Shown here: in pieces, positions 6,409-27,262 of the stretch
Position numbering within the stretch: the stretch's first letter is position 1
Layout: every line of letters starts with the position of its first letter
Assembly: GCA_032358255.1 (NCBI GenBank)
Contig: JAULBX010000002.1
Coordinates: forward strand, 496,001 to 560,000
Direction of reading: 5' to 3'
Source: Heterotrichella gracilis
Taxonomy: Eukaryota; Sar; Xanthophyceae; Tribonematales; Xanthonemataceae
Length of the DNA: 64,000 bases
The notes under the pieces: model-generated
Database searches by the model: none
Told to the model about the DNA's origin: nothing
What the model saw: only the letters and a program-made list of their open reading frames with translations
Program-made: the position numbers and the translations under genes

Positions 6409-6527
6409 GGTTCATAAACCAGACCTTTAACACATTATGTCTCACAAAGAGCAATAAAGGCCTTAAATATCCGTTTTTGAGAAAACATCAATAAATCGTA
6501 ACTTTAACCCTATAAAAACTTAATCGA

Positions 6528-10234: not shown

Positions 10235-10238
10235 AGGG

Positions 10239-10610
10239 CTAAGGTAATGAATCTTTCAAAACTTCAATTCTTACTTTAGTTAAACCGCTTTTTACGAAAT
10301 TTAGTTGTTTCGCAGCACGCATGGTAACATCAATTTTACGCCTGGATGATCTGGGCAAACGATCGTTAACGGTCACAATTACCATGCTATCGTTTTTTAA
10401 ATTGGTGACCTTAACTTTTGTGCCAAATTTCAAGCTCTTATGCGCTGCGGTTAAACTATCGTGGCGAAATCTTTGTCCACTACTACATTTCCTTCCCTCA
10501 AACTTTTTGGCATAAAAACTGGCTGTTCCAGTCTCGGTTTTAGCTGAATCTATTTGCGAAAATCCACTCGCAAAACAGGTAAAAAAGAAAAATAGATAGA
10601 AATTCTTCAC
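10239..10610 (-). CDS. RlpA-like double-psi beta-barrel protein
   Basis: A 123-residue secreted protein: signal peptide of about 18 residues (to GFSQ), then a single RlpA/DPBB domain with GTASFYAKKFEGRKCSSG, LTAAHKSLKFGTKVKVTNL and VTVNDRLPRSSRRKIDVT, ending VRIEVL. RlpA proteins bind or cleave peptidoglycan denuded of stem peptides; no SPOR domain is present, so septal targeting is not implied. The conserved Asp in VNDR is present. First gene of a two-gene minus-strand unit. Confidence 0.88.
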   Translation of the reverse strand: MKNFYLFFFFTCFASGFSQIDSAKTETGTASFYAKKFEGRKCSSGQRFRHDSLTAAHKSLKFGTKVKVTNLKNDSMVIVTVNDRLPRSSRRKIDVTMRAAKQLNFVKSGLTKVRIEVLKDSLP

Positions 10611-10756
10611 TTTTCAATTTACAAAATTTTGGGCAGCTAAAAAACCAGAATTCTAATTTCATCGAAAAAAGTTCTAAAAGGTTGTGTATTGGACCTAAAT
10701 TTCACGCCCTGAAATGCCCGTTAATTCTACAAAAAGCAATTTATTTTAAAATTTAT

Positions 10757-10788
10757 TTGGAAGTATAAAAATAAATAGCTTAAATTTG
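10757..10788 (+). promoter_or_regulatory. Promoter of the sulfur/methionine block
   Basis: TTG (10757-10759), a 21-base spacer and TAAATTTG (10781-10788), a perfect TAnnTTTG -7 element, place the start of transcription near 10795, about 20 bases before the riboswitch P1 stem. Nothing else was seen in 10611-10756 apart from the divergent start of the RlpA-like gene. Confidence 0.75.
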
Positions 10789-10816
10789 TCGAAGATTAAA
10801 ACCACCCATTGTGTGT

Positions 10817-10950
10817 TTTAATTTATTAAGAAGTGGCGAGAGAATAGGCTCATTGACCCACTGGCAACCAACTAAAAGTTTCGGTAAAACGAAATTGGAA
10901 AACAGGTGCCAACTCCTACTCCGATGAAAAACGGAGAAAAATAAATTAAA
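10817..10950 (+). promoter_or_regulatory. SAM-I (S-box) riboswitch
   Basis: The aptamer is closed by a perfect 11-bp P1 stem: TTTAATTTATT (10817-10827) with AATAAATTAAA (10940-10950). Inside are AAGAAGTGG, the P2 closing strand CCACT, the conserved GGCAACC after P2, a P3 hairpin, GGTGCCAACTCC (from 10905), and a P4 hairpin CTCCG (10919-10923) with CGGAG (10932-10936). This order matches the S-box core, which binds S-adenosylmethionine. No intrinsic terminator follows; a small Cys/Met-rich ORF begins ten bases after P1, so control may act on translation of that ORF. Confidence 0.88.
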
Positions 10951-10960
10951 AAAAGAAAAA

Positions 10961-11080
10961 ATGAAACACACAAAATCAAAAAAACAAAACGACACTCAGT
11001 CAAAAGGATTTAATTCTAATCCCCTTTCTTCATTTTTAATGATGGCTTGTTGTATGTGCTGCTGTTGCTGCATGTGCTAA
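10961..11080 (+). CDS. Cys/Met-rich 39-residue leader-like peptide
   Basis: An ATG-started ORF directly after the SAM riboswitch. Its first 26 residues are polar and basic (MKHTKSKKQN...), and its last 13 residues are MMACCMCCCCCMC: eight Cys and four Met. Codons TGT and TGC are mixed. It ends 133 bases before the next gene. Position and composition suggest a stalling leader peptide that senses charged tRNA-Cys and perhaps tRNA-Met, in addition to the riboswitch. A metal-binding peptide is an alternative. The ORF is seen directly; its role is inferred. Confidence 0.65.
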   Translation: MKHTKSKKQNDTQSKGFNSNPLSSFLMMACCMCCCCCMC

Positions 11081-11083
11081 GCT

Positions 11084-11170
11084 AATTTTCCTCAAAAATT
11101 TTATTGGAAAATTTAACCTTGGCAATCCAGGGCGAATTTTGATGTATTCTACTATTTGGAATTTCACATC
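11084..11170 (+). promoter_or_regulatory. Stem-loops after the Cys/Met-rich ORF
   Basis: Three hairpins can form in series: AATTTTCC (11084-11091) with GGAAAATT (11106-11113); CCTTGG (11117-11122) with CCAGGG (11127-11132), one G-U pair, followed by AATTTTG; and GATGTATTC (11141-11149) with GAAT-TTC-ACATC (11159-11170), with a three-base bulge. None has a good T-run. They could be part of an attenuation or mRNA-stability element. Confidence 0.4.
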
Positions 11171-11212
11171 AGTTTCAATTACAAATTTATTAATCATTAA
11201 AAACAAGAAATC

Positions 11213-11452
11213 ATGAACAACAATAATAAACCAAAATATATAAGCGTACTAAACAGCATTAATTTACTTGGTGATGAAGAACACATAAACTTCTTAGCGG
11301 TGCAAGCTGAGTTTGGTATCGAGCAACGTGGCGGCGCGTTTCCTTCTAATATTATTCCGTCTCACATAAATCGTTTAGCAAATGACGTTAATTTTTTAAC
11401 GTCGCTAGAGAAAAAGCAATTGATCTTTTCCGGCAACATATTTAATAACTAA
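11213..11452 (+). CDS. Small hypothetical protein in the sulfur block
   Basis: A 79-residue protein, mostly helical by composition, with HINFLAVQAEFGIEQRGGAF and IPSHINRLANDVNFLTSLEK segments. No signal, membrane helix or Cys. Sixteen bases upstream of metX and therefore almost certainly co-transcribed under the SAM riboswitch. Family not recognised. The ATG follows AAGAAATC. Confidence 0.65.
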   Translation: MNNNNKPKYISVLNSINLLGDEEHINFLAVQAEFGIEQRGGAFPSNIIPSHINRLANDVNFLTSLEKKQLIFSGNIFNN

Positions 11453-11468
11453 AAAATATTCAGGAAAA

Positions 11469-12533
11469 ATGAGCTTATCAACGTTTACATATTCAAAACG
11501 ATTCCAGTTAGAAAGTGGGCAATCACTTCCGGGAATCGACATCGCTTACCAAACATTCGGCACCTTAAATAAAGAACGCAACAATGTTATTTGGGTAGCG
11601 CACGCACTTACAGCAAACAGTAATGTGTTTGATTGGTGGAAAGGTTTGTTCGGCGAGAACGATCTTTACAATCCTAAAGACTATTTTATCGTATGCGCAA
11701 ATAATTTAGGTTCTTGCTATGGTACAACCGGCCCTCTAAGCATCAATAACGAAACTAAAGAAGCCTGGTTCAATTATTTTCCACAAATAACGATCAAAGA
11801 CATTGTCGCTTCACTTGAACTTTTAAAAGATCATTTACGCATTGACAAAATCCATACGTTAATTGGTGGTTCGCAAGGCGGACAAATTGCAATGGAATGG
11901 GCTTTACAAAATAAAGACCTTGTTGAGAATTTAATTCTGATAGCTACCAACGCACAACATTCGCCATGGGGTATTGCCTTCAACGAATCACAGCGTTTGG
12001 CAATAAAAGCTGACAGAACTTACTATTCAAATACCATTGACGCCGCTAAAAAAGGACTTTCTGCAGCGAGAAGTATTGCGCTTTTAAGTTACAGAGGTTA
12101 TGCAACCTATGATGAAACACAAAAAGATGAAAACTATAATAAAACTAATAATTATGCGTCGGCTTCTTACCAACGCTACCAGGGTGAAAAATTAGTGAAC
12201 CGTTTTAATGCCTACTCATATGTTAGACTATTAGATGCAATGGATAGCCACAATGTAGCGCGCAAACGGGCCGAAACAAAAGAACAGGCTTTAAAACAAA
12301 TTAAAGCTAATACTTTGGTAATAGGATTAACAACAGATATTCTGTTTCCTTTGACCGAACAAAAATTTTTGGCTAAAAATATTAAGAATGCAGTGTACTC
12401 AGAAATTGATTCAACTTTTGGTCACGATGGTTTTTTAATTGAAACAGAAAAACTGACAAAAGTAATTTCGGGTTATTACGCGAATGAAAAAATAAAAAAA
12501 GACAAACTTAATTTACAAAAAACTAATAACTAG
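11469..12533 (+). CDS. metX: Homoserine O-acetyltransferase
   Basis: A 354-residue alpha/beta-hydrolase acyltransferase that activates homoserine for methionine synthesis. Landmarks: AYQTFGTLN, WVAHALTAN, the nucleophile elbow GGSQGG with Ser135, and the C-terminal FPLTEQ and FGHDGFLIE segments supplying the catalytic Asp and His. The preceding SAM riboswitch and the downstream hom and metZ fit the transsulfhydration route. Acetyl rather than succinyl specificity is inferred from family membership. Confidence 0.92.
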   Translation: MSLSTFTYSKRFQLESGQSLPGIDIAYQTFGTLNKERNNVIWVAHALTANSNVFDWWKGLFGENDLYNPKDYFIVCANNLGSCYGTTGPLSINNETKEAWFNYFPQITIKDIVASLELLKDHLRIDKIHTLIGGSQGGQIAMEWALQNKDLVENLILIATNAQHSPWGIAFNESQRLAIKADRTYYSNTIDAAKKGLSAARSIALLSYRGYATYDETQKDENYNKTNNYASASYQRYQGEKLVNRFNAYSYVRLLDAMDSHNVARKRAETKEQALKQIKANTLVIGLTTDILFPLTEQKFLAKNIKNAVYSEIDSTFGHDGFLIETEKLTKVISGYYANEKIKKDKLNLQKTNN

Positions 12534-12538
12534 AAACT

Positions 12539-13792
12539 ATGGCAAAGAAATTAAAAATAGGTTTATTCGGATTTGGCTGTGTTGGTCAGGGCTTATATTA
12601 TGTATTAAATAATAGTACAGGCTTTAAAGCAGACATTGTAAAAATTGCGGTTAAGGATAAAACCAAAGAACGCAGTGTTTCAAAAGAGCTTATCACTTTT
12701 GATAAATACGAGATCTTAAATAATCCGGAGATCGATGTGATCGTTGAACTGATTGATGATGCTGAAGAAGCATTTAATATTGTAAGCGAAGCATTAAAAA
12801 AAGGAAAACATGTAGTTACCGCTAATAAAAAATTATTGGCGCTGCACCTCGAAGAATTATATAAGCTGCAGCAGGAAAATAATGTCTCATTATTATACGA
12901 AGCATCGGCAGGCGGAAGCATTCCAATTATTAGAACTTTAGAAGAGTATTTTGATAATGAAGAACTGGAAAAAGTTTCAGGGATCTTTAATGGAACAACC
13001 AATTACATTTTATCAAAAACCATTAGCGAAAAATTATCCTATGCTACCGCTTTAAAACAAGCTCAGGAGCAAGGTTTTGCAGAAACAGATCCTACAAACG
13101 ACGTGGAAGGTTTTGATCCAAAATATAAATCCGTAATAATTGCATTGCACGCTTTTGGGTTAATCATTAAACCGGAAGAGATCCTGAATATTGGTATTAC
13201 TACGTTACACAATAACGATATTAAATATGCTTCAGAAAAAGGCTATAAAATAAAATTAACACCGGTTATTCAACGCTTAGAAGGCGATAAGGTTAGTGTT
13301 TTAGTAGCACCGCGTTTTGTAAAAGATACAAATCAATTATTTAATGTTGAAAATGAATTTAATGGAGTAATTGTAGAAGGTAAATTCTCAGGCGAACAAT
13401 TTTTGCAAGGAAAAGGCGCGGGCAGCTATCCGACGGGTGCTGCGGTACTATCTGATATTTCAGCCTTATCACATGGTTACAAGTATGAATACAAAAAGCA
13501 TGTTCAAAAACACGCGTCTAATTTTACAAACGATGTTCTCGTAAATGTTTACTTCCGTTATAATTCAATCATTGACCTTAACAAATTTGAATTTGATGAG
13601 ATCACCGAAAAATATAACGGAACAGATTATAATTATATTATCGGGAAAGTTAACCTGCAAACCTTATTAAAAAACCGTGATTATATTTTAAAAAATAATT
13701 TATTCATTTCGCTTGTAAACGATACAGTAACCTTAAAAGAAAAAAAGAAAAGTTCTATTTTAAATAAAGAAAAACAATTGATCAACAATTAA
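12539..13792 (+). CDS. hom: Homoserine dehydrogenase
   Basis: A 417-residue NAD(P)-dependent enzyme reducing aspartate semialdehyde to homoserine, the substrate of MetX. The N-terminal Rossmann motif GLFGFGCVGQGLY, the VVTANKKLLA segment, EASAGGSIPIIRTLEEY and GIFNGTTNYILSK, and the catalytic-domain EGFDPKYKSVI are typical. The C-terminal 90 residues do not show a clear ACT domain, so threonine feedback control may be missing. Five bases separate it from metX. Confidence 0.9.
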   Translation: MAKKLKIGLFGFGCVGQGLYYVLNNSTGFKADIVKIAVKDKTKERSVSKELITFDKYEILNNPEIDVIVELIDDAEEAFNIVSEALKKGKHVVTANKKLLALHLEELYKLQQENNVSLLYEASAGGSIPIIRTLEEYFDNEELEKVSGIFNGTTNYILSKTISEKLSYATALKQAQEQGFAETDPTNDVEGFDPKYKSVIIALHAFGLIIKPEEILNIGITTLHNNDIKYASEKGYKIKLTPVIQRLEGDKVSVLVAPRFVKDTNQLFNVENEFNGVIVEGKFSGEQFLQGKGAGSYPTGAAVLSDISALSHGYKYEYKKHVQKHASNFTNDVLVNVYFRYNSIIDLNKFEFDEITEKYNGTDYNYIIGKVNLQTLLKNRDYILKNNLFISLVNDTVTLKEKKKSSILNKEKQLINN

Positions 13793-13805
13793 AAAATAAA
13801 GAATC

Positions 13806-14441
13806 ATGTCAATTAGATTAGGAGATAGCGCACCCGACTTTGTAGCAGAGTCAAGCGAAGGAAAAATAAATTTTTACGAATTTCTAGGAAATAGCTGGGG
13901 GATCTTGTTTTCTCACCCTGCAGATTTTACGCCGGTTTGCACCACCGAATTAGGAACAGTTGCTAAATTAAAATCCGAATTCGATAAACGTAATGTAAAA
14001 GTAATTGCATTAAGTGTAGACCCTGTTGAATCACATTTAAAATGGATAAATGATATCAATGAAACGCAAAATACAAAAGTAAATTATCCCATTATTGCTG
14101 ACCCTATATTTGAAGTGTCAAAATTATACGGTTTTGTTCATCCGAATGCGTCGGATAAATTTACTGTAAGATCAGTTGTCATAATTGATCCAGCTAAGAA
14201 AGTAAAATTACTAATTACTTATCCGGCATCCACCGGAAGAAATTTTGATGAGATATTACGTGTAATAGATTCCTTGCAATTAACTGCTGATTATAGCGTA
14301 GCGACGCCTGCCAATTGGAAACAGGGGGAAGATGTTGTTGTAATACCTTCTATTAAAACCGAAGACATTCCAGCTAAATTTCCAAAAGGATTTAAAGAGA
14401 TAAAACCGTATTTAAGAACAACGCCACAACCAAATATTTGA
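13806..14441 (+). CDS. 1-Cys peroxiredoxin (Prx6-like)
   Basis: A 211-residue AhpC/TSA-fold peroxidase. The peroxidatic Cys45 lies in HPADFTPVCTTELG, the Prx6/1-Cys signature, and it is the only cysteine in the protein, so no resolving Cys exists. The C-terminal extension (residues 160-211) is that of the Prx6 group. It lies between hom and an aldo/keto reductase in the sulfur block; it probably removes peroxide or hydrosulfide-derived oxidants produced during sulfur assimilation, which is inference. Confidence 0.9.
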   Translation: MSIRLGDSAPDFVAESSEGKINFYEFLGNSWGILFSHPADFTPVCTTELGTVAKLKSEFDKRNVKVIALSVDPVESHLKWINDINETQNTKVNYPIIADPIFEVSKLYGFVHPNASDKFTVRSVVIIDPAKKVKLLITYPASTGRNFDEILRVIDSLQLTADYSVATPANWKQGEDVVVIPSIKTEDIPAKFPKGFKEIKPYLRTTPQPNI

Positions 14442-14444
14442 GCC

Positions 14445-15323
14445 ATGGAAAAAATCTATATAAGCGAATCTGGTCCCGAAGTATCGGCAGCTATTTACAG
14501 TTTCTGGAGATACAGCACGGCCTCATTGGCGAATCAAAAAAAGATAGAAGATATTGTTAATTACAATCTAGAGTTAGGTGTAAATACGTTTGACCATAGC
14601 GATAATTATTCCGATGGTAAAATAGAAGAACTTTTTGGTAAAGCCATCTCCTCGAGTTCTATAAAGCGTGAAGATGTAATCATTTCCACAAAAGCCGGCA
14701 TCCGGAAATTTTCCGGAAAAAACAAAAAGGCTGAGTTTTACGATCTGAGCGCAGAGCATATTACTAAAAGTGTAAATGATTCGTTAAAAAGATTAAAAAC
14801 AGATTATATTGATATTTTTTTACTGGAGCATTATGATCCGTTGTACAATGCAGAAGAAACAGCATCAGCATTGACCAAACTTTTAATAAACGGGAAAATA
14901 AAATTCATTGGTGTTTCCAATTTTAATGTATTTCAACATCGTTTATTGGCTTCTCATTTATCGCAGCCGATCATCACTAACCATCTTGAATTAAATCTTT
15001 TGCAAACTAACGCTATCGATGACGGTCGCCTGGATTTTATTAAGGAACAATACAGTAAACCGATGGCTTATGCGCCATTAGCAGGTGGAAGAATATTAAG
15101 CGGCAAAGATAAAAAAGCTGTCAAAGTTAGAAAAGCTTTAACCGAGGTAGCGAAAAAACATAATATTAATATTGAACAGGCTGCTGTTGCCTGGTTACAC
15201 AAGTTAGGCGCTTTGCCAATAATTGGTAGTCCGGATAAAAAACGTATTAAGAATGCAGCAACCGCTTACGCTGTAAAATTAAGTAACGAAGATTGGTATC
15301 ATTTATATAATGCTACAAAATAA
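14445..15323 (+). CDS. Aldo/keto reductase
   Basis: A 292-residue TIM-barrel oxidoreductase of the YdhF-like group. The active-site region NTFDHSDNYSDGKIEELFGKA carries Asp and Tyr, with Lys in IISTKAG and His in FLLEHYDPL, so the tetrad is complete. GVSNFN and the NADPH-binding PIIGSPDKKRI near residue 260 are present. Starts three bases after the peroxiredoxin stop and ends five before the sulfite reductase gene. Substrate unknown. Confidence 0.88.
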   Translation: MEKIYISESGPEVSAAIYSFWRYSTASLANQKKIEDIVNYNLELGVNTFDHSDNYSDGKIEELFGKAISSSSIKREDVIISTKAGIRKFSGKNKKAEFYDLSAEHITKSVNDSLKRLKTDYIDIFLLEHYDPLYNAEETASALTKLLINGKIKFIGVSNFNVFQHRLLASHLSQPIITNHLELNLLQTNAIDDGRLDFIKEQYSKPMAYAPLAGGRILSGKDKKAVKVRKALTEVAKKHNINIEQAAVAWLHKLGALPIIGSPDKKRIKNAATAYAVKLSNEDWYHLYNATK

Positions 15324-15328
15324 ACGTC

Positions 15329-17461
15329 ATGCAGAGTTTTAGAACGGAATTAGAAAACATAAACTCCTCTTCAAAGGTCCTGATCGAAAAAGATATTATC
15401 GATCTTGACAAAAAGATCCGTGCTTTTAAAGAAGGAAAGATCAATGAAGAAAAATTCAGGAGTTTGCGTTTGGCTCGTGGTGTGTATGGCCAGCGTCAGC
15501 AAGGTGTACAAATGATCCGCATTAAACTGCCCTTTGGTAAGTTAAGCGTGAAGCAATTATTGCGTATCGCAGATATTAGCGACGAATACTCAAACGGCAA
15601 TTTACATTTAACCACGCGCCAGGATATACAGATCCATCATGTAAGTTTAGATCGCACACCGGAGCTTTGGGCAAAACTTGAACAAGATGATATTACGTTG
15701 CGTGAAGCTTGTGGCAACACCGTTAGAAATATTACAGCTTCTCCGGAATCAGGAATAGACCCTAACGAATTGTTTGATGTTTCGCCATACGCTCATGCAT
15801 TGTTTACTTATTTTCTACGTAAACCTTTTTGCCAGGAAATGGGCAGGAAAATAAAAATGGCATTTTCGAACAACGAAAAAGATACTGCTTTTACTTACAT
15901 CCACGACCTTGGATTTATTCCAAAGATCGAGAATAATCAAAGAGGCTTTAAAGTTTTAATTGGTGGCGGACTTGGCGCGCAGCCATTTTTAGCGCAAACC
16001 GCTTTTGAATTCTTACATGAAGATAAATTAATTCCTTTTGTGGAAGCCACGTTGCGAGTATTTGATAGAAATGGTGAAAGGGCCAGTCGTCATAAAGCGC
16101 GGTTAAAATATTTGATAAATAAAATTGGTTTAGAAACCTTCTTAGAATTAACAAAGGAAGAAGAAAAAGCGTTACTAGTAAAAGAGTTTAAGATAGATAT
16201 CGAAAACAAAGAAACGAATACTATTTCGCGTGTTTCTCTTTTAAAAGAAAAACCGACAATTAATGAATTAGATTATATCAAATGGTTGAACACAAATACC
16301 TTTAAGCAAAAGCAAAAAGACCTTGTTGGCGTTTACATAAAAATTCAACTTGGAAATATTTCAAGTGAAGCCACAAGAAAATTTGCAAATGTCGTAAAAA
16401 AATATGCAGATGTTGAAGACATACGTATTACCATTAATCAAGGATTTTTATTACGCAATGTCGCACAAGTTGAATTACCATTCTTATTTAACGAACTTAA
16501 AAAAATTAATTTAGCAACACCGGGTTTTGATTCTGTTGGCGATATTACTGCTTGCCCCGGAACTGATACTTGTAATTTAGCAATTTCAAACAGTACACAT
16601 ATTTCTGTTGCGCTTGAGGAAGTTATTTATAGCGAATTTCCTGATCTGCTTTATAATCATGATATAAAAATTAAAATTAGCGGCTGTATGAATGCTTGCG
16701 GGCAACATGGCTTAGCACAAATAGGTTTTCACGGCAGTTCTTTTAAAGTTGGTACAACTGTTGTTCCTGCCCTTCAGGTTCTGTTGGGTGGGGGCACTGT
16801 TGGAAACGGCAAAGGAAGGATCTCAGATAAAATAATTAAAGTTGCCAGCAAACGTGGTCCGGATGTTTTACGTTCGTTATTCACTGATTTCGAAAAAAAC
16901 GCTGTTGAAGGTGAGTACTTCAACTCGTACTACGACAAAAAAGGTAAGGACTATTTTTATCAATTATTAAAACCGTTAGCAGATAATTCCACTTTAAAAA
17001 ATGAAGACTTCATTGATTGGGGGCAGGATGAAAAATTTGCAACAGCTATTGGTGTTGGAGAATGTGCCGGTGTTGTAATTGATCTTGTTGCTACATTGTT
17101 TTATGAAGCAGAAGAAAAATTAGCTTTTGCCGCCGAGGCATTTGAAGAAAAATCTTTCGGTGATAGTATTTATTATTCATACGCAGCCTTTATAAATGCT
17201 GCTAAAGCATTATTGCTCGATAGATCAATTCACGTAAATACGCAACACGGAGTAATCTCTGATTTTGATAAATTATTTGAAAAAGAAAAGCCATTTAGTT
17301 ACGACACCACTTTTAAAGACTTGGTATTACAAATAAACAAGCACGAACCTTCGGAATACTTTGCAGAATTATACTTTTCGCAAGCCGATCGCTTTGTAAA
17401 AGAAGTGAAACAGTTAAGAGCAAAGTATATCAAAGAAACTGAATTAGAAAAGGTATCATAA
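15329..17461 (+). CDS. Siroheme-[4Fe-4S] nitrite/sulfite reductase with C-terminal HEPN domain
   Basis: A 710-residue protein. Residues 40-540 form the duplicated ferredoxin-like and siroheme/Fe-S reductase core: GVYGQRQQGVQMIRIKLPFG, NLHLTTRQDIQIHHV, GNTVRNITASPESG, and the cluster ligands Cys409, Cys415, Cys453 and Cys457 in CPGTDTC and CMNAC. Residues about 565-700 form a HEPN-type helical domain. The context (cysDNH, siroheme enzymes) argues for sulfite as substrate. No CysJ-type flavoprotein is present; the FNR-like protein at 22862 may help supply electrons through ferredoxin. The role of HEPN is unknown. Confidence 0.92.
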   Translation: MQSFRTELENINSSSKVLIEKDIIDLDKKIRAFKEGKINEEKFRSLRLARGVYGQRQQGVQMIRIKLPFGKLSVKQLLRIADISDEYSNGNLHLTTRQDIQIHHVSLDRTPELWAKLEQDDITLREACGNTVRNITASPESGIDPNELFDVSPYAHALFTYFLRKPFCQEMGRKIKMAFSNNEKDTAFTYIHDLGFIPKIENNQRGFKVLIGGGLGAQPFLAQTAFEFLHEDKLIPFVEATLRVFDRNGERASRHKARLKYLINKIGLETFLELTKEEEKALLVKEFKIDIENKETNTISRVSLLKEKPTINELDYIKWLNTNTFKQKQKDLVGVYIKIQLGNISSEATRKFANVVKKYADVEDIRITINQGFLLRNVAQVELPFLFNELKKINLATPGFDSVGDITACPGTDTCNLAISNSTHISVALEEVIYSEFPDLLYNHDIKIKISGCMNACGQHGLAQIGFHGSSFKVGTTVVPALQVLLGGGTVGNGKGRISDKIIKVASKRGPDVLRSLFTDFEKNAVEGEYFNSYYDKKGKDYFYQLLKPLADNSTLKNEDFIDWGQDEKFATAIGVGECAGVVIDLVATLFYEAEEKLAFAAEAFEEKSFGDSIYYSYAAFINAAKALLLDRSIHVNTQHGVISDFDKLFEKEKPFSYDTTFKDLVLQINKHEPSEYFAELYFSQADRFVKEVKQLRAKYIKETELEKVS

Positions 17462-17462
17462 T

Positions 17463-17528
17463 ATGAAAATGCGAATGTATAAAGACAAGATGTGTTGTTG
17501 TTGCTGTTGTTGCTGCACACGTAAATAA
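17463..17528 (+). CDS. Poly-cysteine leader-like mini-ORF
   Basis: A 21-residue ORF beginning one base after the sulfite reductase stop. It encodes MKMRMYKDKM, then eight consecutive Cys (codons TGT TGT TGT TGC TGT TGT TGC TGC at 17493-17516), then TRK and TAA. It lies between sulfite reductase and the siroheme methyltransferase, and its stop codon touches a bistable stem-loop region. Eight Cys codons in a row would make a ribosome pause when charged tRNA-Cys is scarce, so a cysteine-sensing leader is the likely role. Metal binding is an alternative. No homologue was searched for. Confidence 0.72.
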   Translation: MKMRMYKDKMCCCCCCCCTRK

Positions 17529-17601
17529 TTTAACTGGGTTTGAAATTTTCGGCTACTCAGTTAAACATTAAACCGAAAAAATCAAATTATAAACAGTTAA
17601 A
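17529..17601 (+). promoter_or_regulatory. Bistable RNA switch candidate after the poly-Cys ORF
   Basis: Two mutually exclusive folds share the strand 17529-17539. Fold A: 17529-17539 with 17555-17565, 11 bp with one G-U, 15-base loop. Fold B: 17537-17552 with 17573-17588 (14 pairs, one 2x2 mismatch), extended by TTTAACTG 17529-17536 with CAGTTAAA 17594-17601, giving about 22 pairs. Fold B ends 10 bases before the cobA ATG and would occlude ribosome entry; fold A leaves it free. A ribosome ending at the mini-ORF stop would mask the shared strand. Confidence 0.6.
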
Positions 17602-17611
17602 TAAAAATATC

Positions 17612-18382
17612 ATGTCACAAACTATAAATCCAAAACTAACCCTTGTAGGTGCCGGTCCCGGCGATGTTGAATTAATAACCCTTAAAGGTTTAAACGCATT
17701 AAAAACAGCAGATGTTGTTTTGTATGATGCTCTTGTAAACAAAGAACTATTAAAATTTGCTCCGGCTAATTCATTAAAAATTTATGTTGGCAAGCGCAAT
17801 CATCAACATGCGTATACGCAAGAGCAAATAAATTCTTTAATAATTGATCTTGCTTTCACACATGGTCATGTTGTGCGTTTAAAAGGCGGCGACTCCTTTG
17901 TTTTTGGTCGCGGTCAGGAAGAAATTGATTACGCTTATGCCTTTAATATTGAAACGCAGGTTGTACCAGGTATTTCAAGCTCTATTGGTGTTCCGGCTCT
18001 AAGCGGCATTCCTGTAACACATCGAGGTGCAAGTGAGAGCTTTTGGGTAATAACCGGAACAACAAAAGAAAATAAATTATCACAGGATGTTTTATTAGCT
18101 GCAAAAACAAATGCAACAGTTGTGATATTAATGGGCCTTGCCAAATTAAAAGAAATTACAGAAGTGTTTAAAAAAGAAAACAAAGGAAATACGGCTGTAG
18201 CACTAATTCAAAACGGCTCTCTGCCAAACCAGTCCATTGCGTTGGGAACGATTGATACAATTGTTGGTGTTTCCGAAAAAGAAAATATACAAGCACCGGC
18301 GGTTATCATTATTGGAGAAGTGGTAAAACAACATAGAGCATTTTCTTTGGCGCGCGTTAATTCTAGATATCTTTTTAACTAA
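17612..18382 (+). CDS. cobA: Uroporphyrinogen-III C-methyltransferase
   Basis: A 256-residue SAM-dependent methylase making precorrin-2 from uroporphyrinogen III, the first step to siroheme. Motifs: LVGAGPGDVELITLKGL, the YVGKR segment, VVRLKGGDSFVFGRG, VPGISSSIGVPALSGIPVTHRG and a C-terminal APAVIIIGEVV. I chose ATG 17612 (MSQTINPKLTLVG): the frame is open further upstream, but only through the stem-loop region. Siroheme feeds the sulfite reductase just upstream. May be controlled by the poly-Cys element. Confidence 0.94.
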   Translation: MSQTINPKLTLVGAGPGDVELITLKGLNALKTADVVLYDALVNKELLKFAPANSLKIYVGKRNHQHAYTQEQINSLIIDLAFTHGHVVRLKGGDSFVFGRGQEEIDYAYAFNIETQVVPGISSSIGVPALSGIPVTHRGASESFWVITGTTKENKLSQDVLLAAKTNATVVILMGLAKLKEITEVFKKENKGNTAVALIQNGSLPNQSIALGTIDTIVGVSEKENIQAPAVIIIGEVVKQHRAFSLARVNSRYLFN

Positions 18383-18513
18383 TGAGTACAAAACATAAAA
18401 TATTTACTTTGGTTTATTTTGAACGATGTTGTCTTAATTTTCATTGGGCTATATAAATGGCTTTATTACTAAATTAAATAATTTCAAATACAAAATAAAT
18501 TTTAAATAAACCT

Positions 18514-21387
18514 ATGAAAACAATTTTAAGTGCTTTGGCACTTCTTTTTTCCCTATCACTTTTTTCTCAAAATAATTTGATTCAATTATCCGGTATCATT
18601 CATGATAAAACAAATGGTGAGGTGTTAGCAGGAGCGCTAATTCAGATAAAAGGCACACAAACGGCTACACAAACTGATGGCGAAGGGAAATTTATTTTAA
18701 AAACCGCACTTAAGTTTCCTTTTACCGTTATTGTTTCATATATAGGATTTGAGCAACAAGAGTTTTTAATTGAGAATGAAAATCAAAAGACCAATTTCCA
18801 ACTTAATCAACAGGTGCTGACGGTAAATGAAGTAGTTGTATCTGCTTCTCGTACCGAGGAAAGTATTTTAAAATCACCGGTTGCCATTGATAAGTTAGAT
18901 ATTATTTCCATTCGCGAAACGCCTGCGCCCGCATTTTTTGATGCTTTAGAAAATGTAAAAGGCGTACAAATGACAACGGGCAGCTTAACATTTAAGGTTC
19001 CAAATACACGCGGGTTTAACTCTCCTAATAATTTCCGATTTACTCAGTTAGTGGACGGGATTGACATTCAATCGCCAACGTTAGGCATGTCGTTAGGAAA
19101 TACAATTGGACCAAACGAATTAGATATTAAAAGTGTTGAGATCATTCCCGGCTCGTCGTCTGCTTTATATGGTGTAAACTCCATTAACGGTCTATCCAAT
19201 TCATTTACAAAGGATCCCTACAATTACAAAGGTGTAAGTGTATATCAAAGAACAGGCGTTAACCATGTGGATAATATTGATCATGCTTTAAGTTTTATGT
19301 CGGAATCAGCTTTTCGTGTTGCCAATACAGCCGGAAAAAATAACCGTTGGGGATATAAAATAAATGCAAGCTATTTTCAGGGTGTTGATTGGGTATCAAG
19401 TGACCATACAGATCAAAATCCTTACAATCTTACTTCTTCTAATCCGAATTTTTCTCAATTTGGAAGTGGAGAAACTAATCCCGCTTACGATGCTTACAAT
19501 ATTTATGGGAATGAAAGTAATAACAATGTTCCTGTTACAATTGTATACCAGGGAAAAAATCAAACTTTCAATGTCCGCCGCACCGGCTTTCAAGAAAAAG
19601 AGCTTGTAGATCCCAATGTAAAAAACATAAAACTGGATGGCGCTATACATTACAAATTAACAGAGAAAACTGAAGTAAGCTATAAGTACCGTTTCGGGCA
19701 AATGGATGGGATCTTTCAGCGTGGAAACAAAATTCAATTAAAAAATGCTACGCTTCAAAATCACGCCATTGAAATAAAAAATGACGCTTTAGTTTTTAGA
19801 GCCTATACATCTATTGAAAATACTGGTAATTCATATAATTTGAAACCATTAGCGGATAATTTAGACCTTACATTTAAAGATAACAAAACATGGGGTAATA
19901 CATACAAGTCTACATTACAAACTTTGGTGAGCTCCGGGACGGACCTTGTAACCGCTAATCAACTAGCGCGTGAAAAGGCCGATGAAGGAAGATATACAAG
20001 CGATAGTCAAGAGTTTACCGATGCAAAAAACACCATCACTACAATTAACAACTGGGATCATGCGTCATTAATTAAGGACGCGCCATTGACTGGCGGAGCA
20101 GCATTAATACAAAAAAGTAAATTGTACCATAGCGATGTTTTATATGACCTTAGCAAATACACTTCAAAGATAATTGACGTTCTAATTGGTGCAGACGGTC
20201 GCTTAAATCAGGTTATACCAGACGGAAATAATTTTGTGGATTTTAGTAAACCAATAGCTGAAAGAAATCAAACTGGAGGTAACGATGTTTATTATGGTAA
20301 AGTTGGTGGTTTTGTGCAGATAACAAAAAAATTATTCAACGATAAATTAAAATTAGTAGGGTCGCTGCGCTATGATAAGAATTTTGATTTTGCCGGAAAG
20401 ATAAATCCCAGAGCTGCAATTGTGTATACTTTAAAAAAGCAACATAATTTCAGGGTTTCCTATCAAAATGGTTATCGCTTTCCTGCATTATTTGAAGCCT
20501 TATCGTTTGTAAACAACGGAGGGGTGCGTCGTGTTGGCGGTTTACCAGAAGTAAATGAAGGTTTGGGCTTTTTAGAGAACTCTTATACACAAGCTTCCAT
20601 AAATGATTTTACAAGCTTAGTAAATTCAGATATTGCCAACGGCTCAACAAAATCAAATGCGATCATTAAAAATAAATCCGCTTTGGTTGTCGCAAATTTG
20701 CCGCAGTTACAACCAGAACATATTCAGGCATTTGATGCAGGCTATAAGGCAGTATTGTTTGGTAATACTGTTGTTGTAGACTGGGATTTTTATTTTAATA
20801 TCGAGCAAGGTTTCTTAGGTCAGGTAGAAGTATCTGTTCCCACAACCGGTGCTGTTGGGAGTGATAGTTCGGCATTTGATGCTTACACAAAAGCGCGACA
20901 AACCCGTTACCGTGTATTTACAAATGCCAAAAACACATACTACAGTTATGGTTCTGCTATAAGATTGAGTTATAATTTTTACAAGTCCTATACGATCTCA
21001 GGGAATGTAAATTACAACGATCTAAAGACTCAGCAGGCAAATGATATTTTCATCACAGGTTTTAATACCCCCAAATGGGCGGCTAACATTCAATTTGGTA
21101 ACCGTAACTTGTTTAAGAATTTTGGATTTAATCTGATTTGGAAATGGCAGGAAAATTATAAATGGGAAAGCCCATTAGCAACAGGTAACGTGCCTTCATT
21201 TAATACATTTGACGCACAGTTATCCTATAAAATCGCTAAAGCCAACACTTCTTTAAAATTAGGTGGTACAAATATTTTAAACAAGCGTTATGTGCAATAT
21301 GCTGCAGGCCCAACCATTGGAGCATTATATTATTTTAGTTTGACCTACGATCTTAAATTCAAAACCAAACAGGTGGAAAATAATTAG
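18514..21387 (+). CDS. TonB-dependent outer-membrane receptor
   Basis: A 957-residue receptor: signal peptide to FSQ (residue 19), a CarboxypepD_reg-like domain (about 22-105, with GEVLAGALIQIKGTQTATQT), a plug (about 110-240, with VSASRTEESILKSPVAIDKL and IIPGSSSALYGVNSINGL), then a beta-barrel ending in an aromatic-rich strand YFSLTYDLKFK. It is not followed by a SusD partner. Its location inside the sulfur block, 131 bases after cobA and one base before the siroheme/TauE gene, suggests import of a sulfur source or a metal cofactor for siroheme; the ligand is not readable from sequence. 18383-18513 shows no further structure. Confidence 0.92.
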   Translation: MKTILSALALLFSLSLFSQNNLIQLSGIIHDKTNGEVLAGALIQIKGTQTATQTDGEGKFILKTALKFPFTVIVSYIGFEQQEFLIENENQKTNFQLNQQVLTVNEVVVSASRTEESILKSPVAIDKLDIISIRETPAPAFFDALENVKGVQMTTGSLTFKVPNTRGFNSPNNFRFTQLVDGIDIQSPTLGMSLGNTIGPNELDIKSVEIIPGSSSALYGVNSINGLSNSFTKDPYNYKGVSVYQRTGVNHVDNIDHALSFMSESAFRVANTAGKNNRWGYKINASYFQGVDWVSSDHTDQNPYNLTSSNPNFSQFGSGETNPAYDAYNIYGNESNNNVPVTIVYQGKNQTFNVRRTGFQEKELVDPNVKNIKLDGAIHYKLTEKTEVSYKYRFGQMDGIFQRGNKIQLKNATLQNHAIEIKNDALVFRAYTSIENTGNSYNLKPLADNLDLTFKDNKTWGNTYKSTLQTLVSSGTDLVTANQLAREKADEGRYTSDSQEFTDAKNTITTINNWDHASLIKDAPLTGGAALIQKSKLYHSDVLYDLSKYTSKIIDVLIGADGRLNQVIPDGNNFVDFSKPIAERNQTGGNDVYYGKVGGFVQITKKLFNDKLKLVGSLRYDKNFDFAGKINPRAAIVYTLKKQHNFRVSYQNGYRFPALFEALSFVNNGGVRRVGGLPEVNEGLGFLENSYTQASINDFTSLVNSDIANGSTKSNAIIKNKSALVVANLPQLQPEHIQAFDAGYKAVLFGNTVVVDWDFYFNIEQGFLGQVEVSVPTTGAVGSDSSAFDAYTKARQTRYRVFTNAKNTYYSYGSAIRLSYNFYKSYTISGNVNYNDLKTQQANDIFITGFNTPKWAANIQFGNRNLFKNFGFNLIWKWQENYKWESPLATGNVPSFNTFDAQLSYKIAKANTSLKLGGTNILNKRYVQYAAGPTIGALYYFSLTYDLKFKTKQVENN

Positions 21388-21388
21388 A

Positions 21389-22855
21389 ATGAGCATAGAA
21401 GTAAAAAATAATTTATTTCCTGTATTCCTTAAATTGGAGAACTTTCGCGTGCTTATAGTTGGCGGAGGAAAAATTGGTCTGGAAAAAGTAACTGCGGTGC
21501 TAAATAACAGTCCTGCTACAAAAGTTACACTCATTGCAACAAACGTTAGCGCTGACATAAAAAAATTCGCTGAAGCACATTCTAATTTAATTCTTAAACA
21601 ACGAGTATTTAAAAACGAAGACCTTGAGAATATTGACCTGGTTATTGTAGCTGTTAACAATAAAGAAACCAGCATTCTTATAAAAGGAGAAGCTCAGAAA
21701 AGAAATATCCTTGCAAATGTTGCCGACACGCCCGAGCAATGTGATTTTTACTTAGGTTCCATTGTTCAGAAAGGAAATGTAAAAATCGCTGTTTCTACAA
21801 ATGGCAAGTCGCCAACAATAGCAAAGCGCATTCGAGAAACACTTGAAGATACTTTTCCTTTAGAGATCAATGAGTCAATTGATAACTTAACAAATGTGCG
21901 TAAACATTTAAGTGGTGATTTTTCGGCAAAAGTAAAAAAATTGAATTCCATCACTTCAATATTAGCACAACATCCTGAAAAACTAAATAAGGTAAGTAGA
22001 AAACGCTTATTCATTTATAGTTTTTCAGTTCCTGCTTTAATTATTTTTGGCTATTTATTTTGTTATTATTTGCCGCCGGAAATAATTGGCGGTTATTCCT
22101 ATCAAATCGCACAAGCTATTGATTCTTCTATTTTATATTATATTCTTGCTGGATTTATTGCTCAGTTAATAGACGGCGCTTTAGGTATGGCATACGGCAT
22201 TACTGCAACAACTTTTCTATTATCATTTGGCATACCCCCGGCGGCCTCGAGCGCAAGCGTGCACGCATCCGAAGTTTTTACGAGCGGCGTCTCTGGCTTA
22301 ATGCATTTAAAATTTGGCAATGTAAATAAAAAATTATTTAAAAGTTTATTAATACCCGGCGTTATAGGTGCAATTTTAGGAGCTTACATTTTAACTTCAT
22401 TATCAAATTACAATTACATTCTTAAACCATTGGTATCTACTTATACTTTAATTTTAGGAGGCATTATAATTTATAAAGCCATCAAAAAAGACAGCATTCG
22501 TAAAAAAACAAAACGTATTTTTCCTTTGGCATTATTTGGTGGTTTATTAGATTCTATAGGTGGTGGTGGCTGGGGCCCTATTGTGTCATCCACATTAATT
22601 GCCGGTGGACGAAATGCGCGTTACACTATTGGCTCTGTAAATCTTGCTGAATTTTTTGTAGCACTGGCCAGTTCGTTAACATTTATTACCCTTATTGGTT
22701 TAACACATTGGACCATCATTGCCGGTTTAATTATTGGTGGTTGCATTGCTGCGCCCATAGGGGCTTTTCTTGCAAATAAGATCCCCACAAAAACAATAAT
22801 GCTTTTGGTGGGAATAGTAGTAATAATAATAAGTTTAAAACGAATTTTTTTCTAA
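21389..22855 (+). CDS. Precorrin-2 dehydrogenase / TauE-SafE transporter fusion
   Basis: A 488-residue two-domain protein. Residues 1-205 match the CysG N-terminal precorrin-2 dehydrogenase/ferrochelatase: FLKLENFRVLIVGGGKIGLEK, NVADTPEQCDFYLGSIVQKG and ISVSTNGKSP-like AVSTNGKSPTIAKRIRETLE. Residues 210-488 are a TauE/SafE (TSUP) transporter with about eight membrane helices, including DGALGMAYGITATTFLLSFG and GGLLDSIGGGGWGPIVSSTL. It joins siroheme maturation to a probable sulfite or sulfonate permease. Similar fusions may exist in relatives, but I could not check. The frame is intact and no internal start is obvious. Confidence 0.9.
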   Translation: MSIEVKNNLFPVFLKLENFRVLIVGGGKIGLEKVTAVLNNSPATKVTLIATNVSADIKKFAEAHSNLILKQRVFKNEDLENIDLVIVAVNNKETSILIKGEAQKRNILANVADTPEQCDFYLGSIVQKGNVKIAVSTNGKSPTIAKRIRETLEDTFPLEINESIDNLTNVRKHLSGDFSAKVKKLNSITSILAQHPEKLNKVSRKRLFIYSFSVPALIIFGYLFCYYLPPEIIGGYSYQIAQAIDSSILYYILAGFIAQLIDGALGMAYGITATTFLLSFGIPPAASSASVHASEVFTSGVSGLMHLKFGNVNKKLFKSLLIPGVIGAILGAYILTSLSNYNYILKPLVSTYTLILGGIIIYKAIKKDSIRKKTKRIFPLALFGGLLDSIGGGGWGPIVSSTLIAGGRNARYTIGSVNLAEFFVALASSLTFITLIGLTHWTIIAGLIIGGCIAAPIGAFLANKIPTKTIMLLVGIVVIIISLKRIFF

Positions 22856-22861
22856 GTAAAA

Positions 22862-23872
22862 ATGATAACAACAGACATAGCCATAGTAGGCGCAGGACCA
22901 GTAGCATTATTTGCCATTTTTGAAGCAGGACTTTTAAAGATGCGATGCCATTTAATTGATTATTTACCGCAAGTAGGCGGACAACTTTCGGAGATCTATC
23001 CAAAAAAACCCATTTACGATATCCCGGGCTTTCCAAGTGTGTTAGCGCAGGAATTAGTAGACAATTTAGTAAAACAAGCCGAACCCTTTAATCCGGGTTA
23101 CACTTTGGGCGAGCGCATTGAAACTTTAGAAAAACGTGGTGAAAAAGATTTTTTACTAACCACCAATTTAGGAACACAAATCCAGGCAAAAGTAATTGTT
23201 ATTGCTGGTGGCTTAGGTTGCTTTGAGCCCCGAAAGCCTGAAGTAGAAGGTCTGGAAAAATTTGAGAATGGAAAAGGAATCAATTATATGATCCTAGATC
23301 CAGAAAAATACCGAAATAAAAAAATGATAATTGCCGGTGGCGGCGATAGCGCATTAGACTGGACCATTTTTTTAAGCGAAGTTTGTTCTGAACTAACGCT
23401 CGTACACCGTAGTGAATCATTCAGAGGAACACCGGATAGTGTGAACAAAGTTTTTAAATTGGCGGAAGAAGGTAAAATAAAATTACACCTTAACACCAAT
23501 TTAAATTACGTAAATGGCAATGGCAAACTAAATAGCGTGGCCATGACAAATAGTAAAACACATGAGCAGACCATTATTAACACGGATCATTTAATTCCAC
23601 TATTTGGTTTAAGCCCAAAATTAGGGCCAATTGAAAATTGGGGATTGAATATTGATAAAAATGCCATTGAAGTAAATACGGAGGATTATTCAACAAATAT
23701 TCCCGGAATATATGCTATTGGAGACATTAACACATACAAGAACAAATTAAAACTGATCTTATGTGGCTTTCATGAAGCAGCGCTAATGGCGCACAGTGCT
23801 TATAAATATATAAATCCAGGCGTAAAATATACCATGAAATATACAACCGTAAATGGTGTTAACGCATTCTAA
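22862..23872 (+). CDS. Ferredoxin-NADP+ reductase type 2-like flavoprotein
   Basis: A 336-residue thioredoxin-reductase-fold oxidoreductase lacking the CxxC active site. FAD motif IAIVGAGPVALFAIFEAGLL near the start, the LIDYLPQVGGQLSEIYPKKP signature of FNR2, IPGFP, a second GGGDSALDW motif (residues 155-165) for NADPH, and AIGDINTY with a C-terminal GFHEAALMAHSAY. These enzymes pass electrons from NADPH to ferredoxin. In this operon it is a good candidate for reducing the ferredoxin that serves sulfite reductase; that link is inference. Confidence 0.88.
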   Translation: MITTDIAIVGAGPVALFAIFEAGLLKMRCHLIDYLPQVGGQLSEIYPKKPIYDIPGFPSVLAQELVDNLVKQAEPFNPGYTLGERIETLEKRGEKDFLLTTNLGTQIQAKVIVIAGGLGCFEPRKPEVEGLEKFENGKGINYMILDPEKYRNKKMIIAGGGDSALDWTIFLSEVCSELTLVHRSESFRGTPDSVNKVFKLAEEGKIKLHLNTNLNYVNGNGKLNSVAMTNSKTHEQTIINTDHLIPLFGLSPKLGPIENWGLNIDKNAIEVNTEDYSTNIPGIYAIGDINTYKNKLKLILCGFHEAALMAHSAYKYINPGVKYTMKYTTVNGVNAF

Positions 23873-23902
23873 AATAAAGTATATTTAGAGTAAAAAACTA
23901 AA

Positions 23903-24316
23903 ATGAGAATAAATATTAAACGAATAGATAACGATTTTAAAATGGAGGCCATTAACGAAGATGGAAACTCTTTATTGATGGATGCTTCTCCGGATATTGG
24001 CGGCCATGGAAAAGGTATGCGTCCAATGCAGTTATTACTTTCTGCTTTAGGAGGTTGCAGTGCTATTGATGTGATCCTTATCTTAAAAAAACAAAAGCAG
24101 GAGATAGAATCTTTTGAAATTGAAGTTGATGGTGATCGTGAAAAGACCGGAGATGTTTCTTTATTCAAAAACATCGTTCTGCATTTTAAAATAAAAGGAA
24201 AAGTGGATGAAGATAAAGCAGAACGTGCTGTACAATTATCGGTGGAAAAATATTGTTCAGTTGCAAAAACATTAGAACCAACTGCAAAAATAACGTATAA
24301 AGTATCTGTTAATTAA
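23903..24316 (+). CDS. OsmC-family protein
   Basis: A 137-residue OsmC/Ohr-fold protein with GMRPMQLLLSALGGCSAIDV containing Cys52 and a second Cys near residue 118 in KYCSVAKTL, the usual thiol pair of peroxide or persulfide-handling members. Many operonic OsmC proteins in sulfur clusters belong to a YhfA-like group of uncertain substrate. Located 30 bases after the FNR-like gene and one base before metZ. Confidence 0.88.
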   Translation: MRINIKRIDNDFKMEAINEDGNSLLMDASPDIGGHGKGMRPMQLLLSALGGCSAIDVILILKKQKQEIESFEIEVDGDREKTGDVSLFKNIVLHFKIKGKVDEDKAERAVQLSVEKYCSVAKTLEPTAKITYKVSVN

Positions 24317-24317
24317 T

Positions 24318-25490
24318 ATGGAAAATAAGAAATTTGAAACCCAGGCCATAAGAGCACAAATGGAGCGCAGTCAGAACAACGAGCACTCTGCCCCACTCTA
24401 TTTAACATCTAGCTTTGTATTTGATACTGCAGAAGAAATGCGCGCTGCTTTTAATGATGAATCGGAAGACTTTATTTATTCGCGTTATACCAACCCAAAT
24501 GTTAACGAATTTGTAAATAAAGTTTCGCTTCTCGAGAATGCAGAAGCAGGTGTTGCCTTTGCTTCGGGCATGGCGGCTATTTATACTACATTTATGGCTT
24601 TATTAAAATCTGGTGACCATATTATTTCCTGCTCATCTGTTTTTGGCGCAACGCATGCCATCTTTACAAAATATTTCCCAAAACTAAATATTACGCACTC
24701 TTATTTCAATACAAATAATGTATCTGAAATAGAAAAATTAATTAAACCGGAAACACGTTTTATCTATTTAGAAACGCCAACTAATCCGGCCATTGAATTA
24801 ATTGATCTTGAATTAGTAAATACTATCGCTAAAAAACACAAACTACTTTTTATTGTGGATAATTGTTTTGCTACACCCTATTTACAGCAACCAATTAAAT
24901 ACGGCGCTGATCTCGTTGTTCATTCAGCTACAAAATATATGGATGGGCAAGGACGTGTTTTAGGTGGTATAACTGTAGGTAAAAAAGAATTGATAAACGA
25001 TATTTATTTATTTGGGAGATTAACCGGACCATCATTAAGCCCATTTAATGCATGGAACTTAAGCAAGAGCTTGGAAACCTTGGCGTTAAGAATGGATCGG
25101 CATTGCGAGAATGCTCTGCATATTGCAAAAGCTTTGGAAGGGAATTCAAAATTAGAGAATGTTTCATATCCTTTCTTACCATCGCATCCAAATTATAACA
25201 TTGCAAAAAAACAAATGAAAGCCGGTGGAGGCATTATCACAATCACTGTTAAAGGTGGTTACGAAGCTGCCAAAAAGTTTTTGGATAAATTAAAAATGAT
25301 CAAGATCTCTCCAAACCTTGGCGACGCAAGATCCATCGTTACGCATCCAGCCTCGTCTACACATTGCAAACTGTCTGAGGAAGAAAGAAAAACGGTTGGC
25401 ATCACACCTGGTTTAATTCGTATCTCAATAGGATTAGAAAATAAAGAAGATATTTTAAATGACATTTTACAAGCATTAACTAGCGAATAG
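24318..25490 (+). CDS. metZ: O-acyl-homoserine sulfhydrylase (MetZ-like)
   Basis: A 390-residue Cys/Met-metabolism PLP enzyme. FETQAIRAQMERS at the start, FASGMAAIYTTFMALLKSGD, the YLETPTNPAIELID cofactor segment and the Schiff-base Lys206 in VVHSATKYMDGQGRVLGG, the motif typical of O-succinylhomoserine sulfhydrylase. With MetX making O-acetylhomoserine it would use sulfide directly to form homocysteine. Cystathionine gamma-synthase activity is the alternative. Confidence 0.9.
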   Translation: MENKKFETQAIRAQMERSQNNEHSAPLYLTSSFVFDTAEEMRAAFNDESEDFIYSRYTNPNVNEFVNKVSLLENAEAGVAFASGMAAIYTTFMALLKSGDHIISCSSVFGATHAIFTKYFPKLNITHSYFNTNNVSEIEKLIKPETRFIYLETPTNPAIELIDLELVNTIAKKHKLLFIVDNCFATPYLQQPIKYGADLVVHSATKYMDGQGRVLGGITVGKKELINDIYLFGRLTGPSLSPFNAWNLSKSLETLALRMDRHCENALHIAKALEGNSKLENVSYPFLPSHPNYNIAKKQMKAGGGIITITVKGGYEAAKKFLDKLKMIKISPNLGDARSIVTHPASSTHCKLSEEERKTVGITPGLIRISIGLENKEDILNDILQALTSE

Positions 25491-25532
25491 CGATTAGTGA
25501 ATAGTTATTAGGGTCATTTCTATTAACTATTC
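25482..25532. repeat. Imperfect inverted repeat between metZ and cysH
   Basis: GAATAGTTATTA (25499-25510) and TATTAACTATTC (25521-25532) form an inverted repeat around a 10-base loop, with flanking related pieces (AGCGAATAGCGATTAGT to the left, GCTATTAACT to the right, to 25542). It begins inside the end of metZ. It resembles the short AT-rich intergenic repeats scattered in many Bacteroidota genomes. Confidence 0.5.
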
Positions 25533-25550
25533 GCTATTAACTAAAAATAA

Positions 25551-26243: not shown

Positions 26244-26275
26244 GATTTAAGAACCGAGATTTGAGAAATAAAAAA

Positions 26276-27184: not shown

Positions 27185-27201
27185 AATGAAAAATTATAAA
27201 T

Positions 27202-27232
27202 GTTGGATGATAAATTATTGTTTTCATTCAAC
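27202..27232. repeat. Hairpin between cysD and cysN
   Basis: GTTGGATGA (27202-27210) pairs with TCATTCAAC (27224-27232), 9 bp with one G-U, followed by ATC. No T-run, so not a terminator. It could set the differential expression of cysD and cysN or be an old intergenic repeat. Confidence 0.45.
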
Positions 27233-27262
27233 ATCAGATATTTAAAATTTAAAATTACAAAA

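Follow-up and report, generated by a model that had tools for sequence, protein, structure and literature searches.

A conserved poly-cysteine mini-ORF between sulfite reductase and cobA in Bacteroidota, with features of a mid-operon leader

Introduction

Most descriptions of amino-acid leader attenuators place them at the start of an operon. Poly-Cys upstream leaders have been reported for the cys genes of mycobacteria and other actinobacteria, for which, according to the relevant passages of that study, a conserved terminator hairpin was not found (Seliverstov 2005, PMC1262725). The mycobacterial poly-Cys leaders are described as leaderless short ORFs and are reported to be cysteine-responsive in M. 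smegmatis (Canestrari 2020). The uORFC-8-2 motif, located before cysS in Rhodobacterales, combines a tandem-Cys uORF with RNA stems, and ribosome attenuation is proposed for it in the section devoted to the motif (PMC8632094). The LEU element, located before leuA in Actinobacteria, is a related case: its leader ORF contains one codon several times in succession and lies next to a conserved pseudoknot. These repeated codons pair with the leuA ribosome site, and changing them is said, in the passage on this element, to have no regulatory effect (PMC1262725). For F. psychrophilum, clues for leader-peptide attenuation before amino-acid operons are presented in a passage that does not name cysteine (PMC9723704).

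Here we describe a short ORF with eight consecutive Cys codons that lies inside an operon, between a sulfite reductase-type gene and a cobA-type gene, in a 64,000-nucleotide stretch of DNA (hereafter the window). The window belongs to an 894-kb contig that carries Bacteroidota genes (its SiR matches UBA2475 at 94%) inside a eukaryote-like assembly of 68.5 Mb and 903 contigs that was handled as intron-containing. Judged by its sequence, this contig is that of a symbiont or a contaminant.

Results

The mini-ORF and its operon

The sulfite/nitrite reductase-type gene SiR (15329-17461, plus strand; NIR_SIR and NIR_SIR_ferr domains) ends with a TAA codon at 17459-17461. After a single spacer base (17462) begins an ORF of 21 codons, conserved among relatives, that occupies 17463-17528 of the plus strand (ATG at 17463, TAA at 17526-17528) and whose product reads MKMRMYKDKMCCCCCCCCTRK. 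Positions 17493-17516 of the same strand are an uninterrupted run of eight Cys codons, TGT TGT TGT TGC TGT TGT TGC TGC. These coordinates confirm what an earlier note on this DNA had reported, namely a 21-codon ORF with eight TGT/TGC codons in a row, one base past the SiR stop. Downstream lies a cobA-type siroheme methyltransferase gene (17612-18382, plus strand; TP_methylase domain), presumed to be the controlled gene, so that by their Pfam domains the flanks of the mini-ORF are sulfite reduction and siroheme genes.

Pfam domains in the rest of the block correspond to a homoserine dehydrogenase, an alpha/beta hydrolase, a siroheme synthase-TauE fusion, a Cys/Met PLP enzyme, two PAPS_reduct-domain proteins and a GTPase. 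We take the hydrolase to be metX-like, the two PAPS_reduct proteins to be CysH-like and CysD-like, and the GTPase to be CysN-like. In the fusion (21389-22855), the NAD-binding and central domains of siroheme synthase are joined to a TauE/SafE sulfite exporter domain. The operon head carries a SAM riboswitch aptamer (RF00162; 10820-10947, plus strand; 71.2 bits against a gathering score of 44.4), followed after 13 nt by a head leader ORF, MKHTKSKKQNDTQSKGFNSNPLSSFLMMACCMCCCCCMC (10961-11080, plus strand), which by ORF reading is a second Cys/Met leader of the block. The riboswitch is the sole match of Rfam 15 at gathering scores in 9000-29000, leaving the internal element without a family; at E<=1, the region 17440-17660 matches only a miRNA model, far under its cut-off.

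A single (TGY)8 is present in the window, and none in any of 100 dinucleotide-preserving shuffles of the same DNA. For the shorter (TGY)4, with an expectation of 0.22, there are 9 matches, overlaps included, which fall in three places: the internal mini-ORF, the head leader (near 11057) and a minus-strand segment, 63694-63708, antisense to a large ORF. As a bare DNA word the TGY 12-mer is not rare, with 49-87 places per genome in nine relative genomes. Since such runs are common, the argument depends on the Cys run being in frame and kept at a single place, and not on the mere presence of a run.

Conservation and distribution

A genome scan for SiR retained 80 loci, where a Cys leader was defined as an ORF no longer than 75 aa that has 4 adjacent Cys residues or 5 within 8 positions. 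All eight nearest loci (78-94% identity) have a mini-ORF directly 3' of SiR, and seven of them pass this threshold, L035 having three Cys. None of the 72 more distant loci (L039-L110) has such a leader between SiR and the next gene at the 4-Cys threshold, some contigs of this control stopping shortly past SiR. L059 is the only one of the 72 with threshold-passing ORFs, and these are placed upstream of SiR: two short Cys-run ORFs at 6485-6737 of this Saprospiraceae contig, perhaps an independent leader. Another of the 72, L090, belongs to a contig titled Bifidobacterium breve MAG and has a SiR 58% identical to that of the window, the bin being probably mislabelled.

At the level of the order that includes L031, 87 genomes were sampled, with 32 strong cobA orthologs (E<=3.8e-69); 31 of these were assessed, leaving out G032, whose contig begins in cobA. 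The partial copy of 66 residues in G074 was not included. A leader with at least three consecutive Cys codons stands just upstream of cobA at 22 of the 31 assessed loci. This agrees with the claim of the earlier note that a conserved internal poly-Cys mini-ORF marks the SiR-cobA junction in Bacteroidota. Loss of the run with the flanking genes kept, which that note had named as evidence against its reading, is not the pattern within the order; outside it, SiR is kept without such a leader, at the 4-Cys threshold, at all 72 loci mentioned above.

The number of consecutive Cys codons varies from 3 to 8 across the 22 leaders, with variants such as CCCYCCC (G003) and CCCFC (G066). By eye, 21 of them follow an ORF reading as the SiR 3' end, the exception being G029; the leader ATG lies -8 to +2 nt from the SiR stop in 18 of these 21 and at +17, +21 and +67 nt in the other three. 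Outside the Cys run the peptide varies by group, MKMRMYKDKM.. in one and YIYIKYEY..MIM in another. G085 keeps the ORF and the structure described below with a single Cys codon. Eight of the 31 assessed cobA loci have no leader, and in seven of those the SiR-cobA gap is at most 60 nt. On a cobA tree of 30 rows, computed without G064, G063 and G013, the label 'absent' (7 rows) requires five changes, four of which are forced by well-supported branches, indicating that the element was repeatedly lost or gained. Since the loci are related to each other, the counts given here are not independent.

A leader HMM (A3) was built from 19 of the order's leaders. In the 87 genomes of the order, all 14 matches at E<=0.005 sit at cobA. 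The model is weak on some window-type leaders (no match in G002, E 0.205 in G001), and none of the thirteen weaker loci that were inspected is at a recognisable sulfur gene; one of these, L264, holds a short ORF that starts with TTG and encodes CCCC. In 395 class genomes, where the low sensitivity of the model means that the result is no proof of absence elsewhere, four matches were obtained: G056 and G057, both members of the order, G169 and G272. At L271 (G169:C44), in a genome outside the 87, a leader ending in CCCC before its stop lies between SiR and cobA, with no P1 by eye. The G272 match, located in a repetitive stretch, was discarded by eye as chance.

RNA structure downstream of the Cys run

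A hairpin, P1, is located 3' of the Cys run, and its loop can pair with a downstream segment to form P2. By P1+P2 scoring, the P1 5' arm (A) of the window occupies 17529-17539, starting directly past the stop codon; the P2 5' arm lies inside the P1 loop at 17546-17552, the P1 3' arm (B) at 17555-17565 and the P2 3' arm at 17573-17579, all on the plus strand. The best stacking energy of P1+P2 was compared with 60 dinucleotide shuffles per locus at 24 loci. The shuffles were beaten at 22 of them, by exceeding all 60 at 21 loci (p 0.016) and 59 of 60 at L149 (p 0.033); L150 (p 0.90) and L169 (p 0.15) are CCC leaders without structure above shuffles. The program's best fold at L145 and L149 has another register than the P1/P2 described here, and P2 is weak at L235. 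Both this structure past the mini-ORF and the second leader at 10961-11080 were missing from the first reading of the sequence.

The letters of the arms change between loci while pairing holds, that is, the arms covary. For instance, the P2 arms are TTTTCGG/CCGAAAA in the window, TCTTCCC/GGGAAGA in G030, TTTCCTCC/GGAGGAAA in G056 and CTTTCTCT/AGAGAAAG in G016. Since MAFFT, by eye, misregisters the distant loci, arms were compared directly instead of through a covariance model. With a locus's own arms the longest pairing run averages 10.3 for P1 (21 rows) and 7.7 for P2 (20 rows), against 4.2 and 4.1, respectively, with arms of unrelated loci; mixed arm pairs are as good as the true pair in 8 of 340 cases for P1 and 2 of 188 for P2. 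For this comparison the arms of L145 (G039) and L149 (G064) were picked by eye, and the structureless L150 and L169 as well as L164, a near copy, were left out. RNAalifold showed no compensatory change among the five closest sequences, which are too alike.

At 18 of the 22 structured loci, P1 begins 12-16 nt past the Cys run (12 nt in the window, 16 nt in L168); at the others the distance is 7, 11, 17 and 21 nt. The argument from spacing is weakened somewhat by the restriction of the P1 search to 0-22 nt and by the kinship of the loci. The stop codon is found 12-36 nt past the Cys run across the structured loci. The ribosome footprint extends about 12 nt beyond the translated codon, as given in the relevant passage of PMC4833913. 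With such a footprint and such a spacing, a ribosome at the last Cys codon would just leave P1 free, and a ribosome moving on would cover arm A. The spacing appears to be about that of an attenuator and constitutes the core of our argument.

Concerning the head leader, 68 SAM-riboswitch loci were examined in the order, and 46 of them have a Cys/Met-rich leader of its type (45/67 without one duplicate); the 68 are made up of 30 loci and 38 of 40 stretches, a subset of the order's matches. A poly-Cys leader was present at none of 29 class-wide SAM-riboswitch loci, these being the best-scoring ones and not a fair sample. The same P1/P2 was considered for the head leader and rejected: compared with shuffles, P1 reached p<=0.05 at 4 of 46 loci and P1 with P2 at 2 of 46. 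The head leader supports, by its sequence, a sulfur-sensing context, and a working of the internal type is only putative for it.

Possible outputs of the element

The window's clade has a partial copy of arm B (B', 17594-17601, plus strand), separated from the cobA start by 10 nt; it is able to pair with arm A, and this pairing would enclose P2 (pairing test, p 0.013). Of the 19 rows tested, 6 have a second partner for arm A at p<=0.05, four of these rows coming from close relatives, and 1 has such a partner for arm B (G056); the 38 tests are uncorrected. The 89 nt at 17526-17614, past the ORF, have a minimum free energy of -17.6 kcal/mol (z -4.96), and the 178 nt at 17463-17640, which include the ORF, give a z of only -1.44. 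In nested folding, the cobA start region is unpaired at 0.76 with the ribosome at the stop codon versus 0.54 with the ribosome at the Cys codons; this modelled openness runs against the ON/OFF assignment proposed below and calls for caution.

A scan of 17300-18000 for terminator-like sites, limited to loops of 3-8 nt, found none, and no T-run is seen by eye past P2 in the window. The P2 stem of G031 has 13 bp, and TTTTTT closes its 3' arm. G029 (L235) has two successive Cys leaders before cobA, at 1290-1760 of G029:C20, with a G+C-rich hairpin and TTTTTT between the first and the second; by eye, upstream of them there is an Rrf2-like regulator gene. With moderate confidence, the predicted structures point to control of cobA translation in the window and to outputs that differ between clades. 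A translational output in the window seems somewhat more probable than a transcriptional one.

Discussion

A cysteine-responsive switch as the preferred reading

The mini-ORF and P1/P2 probably form a mid-operon, ribosome-gated, cysteine-responsive leader switch that controls cobA. Such a switch is suggested by the Cys run that is kept, the adjacency to the SiR stop, the covariation of P1 and P2, the spacing, the sulfur neighbours, and the SAM riboswitch with its Met/Cys leader at the operon head. Through this leader, the cell would most likely register a lack of cysteine midway along the operon. Like an attenuator, the locus has a short ORF with a codon run for the amino acid of its pathway, and, by computation only, alternative structures placed for selection by ribosome position (P1/P2 and, in the window's clade, A:B versus A:B'). 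The earlier note had already read the ORF as a poly-Cys sensor of the attenuator kind, acting on the siroheme/TonB/cys half of the block; the conserved Cys run and the covarying RNA at about the footprint distance speak for the sensor, a reach past cobA into the TonB/cys half is only putative, and the reading as a whole is partly supported at the sequence level.

We infer translation of the leader, stalling and the order of folding, the last from the logic of the pathway and from known attenuators. Ribosomes finishing SiR would start at once on the leader, such reinitiation being suggested by the observed adjacency of the ATG to the SiR stop. When Cys-tRNA is scarce, the ribosome would wait in the Cys run with its leading edge just short of arm A; A could then pair with B as P1 and the P1 loop with the downstream segment as P2, giving a pseudoknot-type fold that would leave the cobA start region free (ON). 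When Cys-tRNA is plentiful, the ribosome would run on and cover A during downstream transcription, allowing P2 without P1. In the window's clade, A would later pair with B' beside the cobA start and mask this start (OFF). The output seems different in other clades, with a terminator-like P2 in G031 and, in G056, arm B pairing with a second A segment close to the start. We consider it likely that cobA is ON under cysteine starvation, which would require that P1 forms first during transcription and is stable, and that A:B' forms only after ribosome passage.

Alternative explanations

The RNA structure could itself be the active part, acting as an intercistronic stabiliser, a ribonuclease barrier or a protein- or metabolite-binding site, with the mini-ORF only setting translation through structure. 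Indeed, P1/P2 are better supported than any output, and G085 retains the structure with its single Cys codon. However, the Cys run is kept in 22/31 loci beside cysteine-pathway genes, the loop letters vary freely between clades, which fits poorly with a fixed ligand or protein site, and no Rfam family matches; we regard this explanation as unlikely. In most loci the leader start touches the SiR stop or overlaps with it, a position that would also suit a leader that merely aids ribosome reinitiation on cobA, without cysteine sensing. This is quite improbable: the leader stop and the cobA start are 83 nt apart in the window and 43-168 nt apart at the other loci measured, whereas the reinitiation distance proposed for Bacteroidetes peaks at 11-14 bp in the relevant passage of PMC4833913, and the Cys run would be left unexplained.

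A functional Cys-rich micropeptide that binds a metal, haem or thiol is very improbable. Although the ORF has a sensible start codon and some residues are common within groups (as in YIYIKYEY..MIM), the products are of 17-27 aa, with the Cys run alone common across groups, and in several loci (L161-L166) the 3' end of the ORF lies within arm A of P1; the mini-ORF also matches no NCBIfam or Pfam model, such models being poor at 21 aa. As for an accident of TGY simple repeats, the 12-mers are common in the relative genomes, but the run occurs at the same place and in frame in 22/31 genomes and mixes TGT with TGC. Its chance is practically negligible, since the conservation of the in-frame Cys run already contradicts it.

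Significance and comparison with known systems

If the cysteine-responsive switch is real, an attenuator located between genes and coupled to the preceding one would split the expression of an operon by tRNA charging, and uncultured Bacteroidota would gain a named, testable cysteine-sensing system. The natural series of 3 to 8 Cys codons, together with one single-Cys locus, would make the relation between codon number and response measurable. Judging from the head leader, these lineages seem also to place a riboswitch for a metabolite and a codon-counting leader on a single mRNA. A wider proposal, which we hold as evenly balanced between true and false, is that one operon carries two codon-reading sulfur sensors: at its head, a SAM riboswitch with a Met/Cys leader and, mid-operon, a poly-Cys leader coupled to the SiR stop and gating a pseudoknot-type switch with covarying arms before siroheme synthesis. 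Its core would be common to the order, and the output, start-site masking or a terminator, would be exchanged between clades.

As far as the published passages go, the window's mini-ORF is like the mycobacterial poly-Cys leaders in being a short ORF with contiguous Cys codons linked to cysteine genes, so the parallel drawn in the earlier note holds for the Cys run. It does not extend to the architecture: the mycobacterial leaders are described as upstream and leaderless, whereas this mini-ORF is mid-operon, abuts SiR, is accompanied by covarying P1/P2 and occurs in Bacteroidota. Being one base past the SiR stop, it would require an internal promoter for a leaderless start. With uORFC-8-2, as described in the section on that motif, it shares a uORF with successive Cys codons and RNA stems; that motif, however, has two Cys codons, a head position, cysS as its gene and always a 3' U run, against eight Cys codons and no terminator found in the window. 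Like the LEU element in the passage available for it, the locus has a leader ORF with a single-codon run near a pseudoknot-type fold, but in the window P1 starts 12 nt past the Cys run. A pairing of the Cys run with the cobA start, as in the LEU element, is absent from the minimum-free-energy fold of 17463-17640, a single nested fold.

The Bacteroid-trp element (RF01692) is, we assume, a Trp leader. Together with the attenuation suggested for F. psychrophilum, it provides a precedent within the phylum for attenuation-type elements; in the material compared, neither case has a Cys run or a mid-operon place, and the window element has both. Searches of an open-licence PMC library gave no paper recognisable as an account of a Bacteroidota poly-Cys leader, an earlier mention being possible. 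The locus is best explained as a variant of the poly-Cys leader, a type already known, of which the mid-operon, SiR-coupled form with P1/P2 would be the new part.
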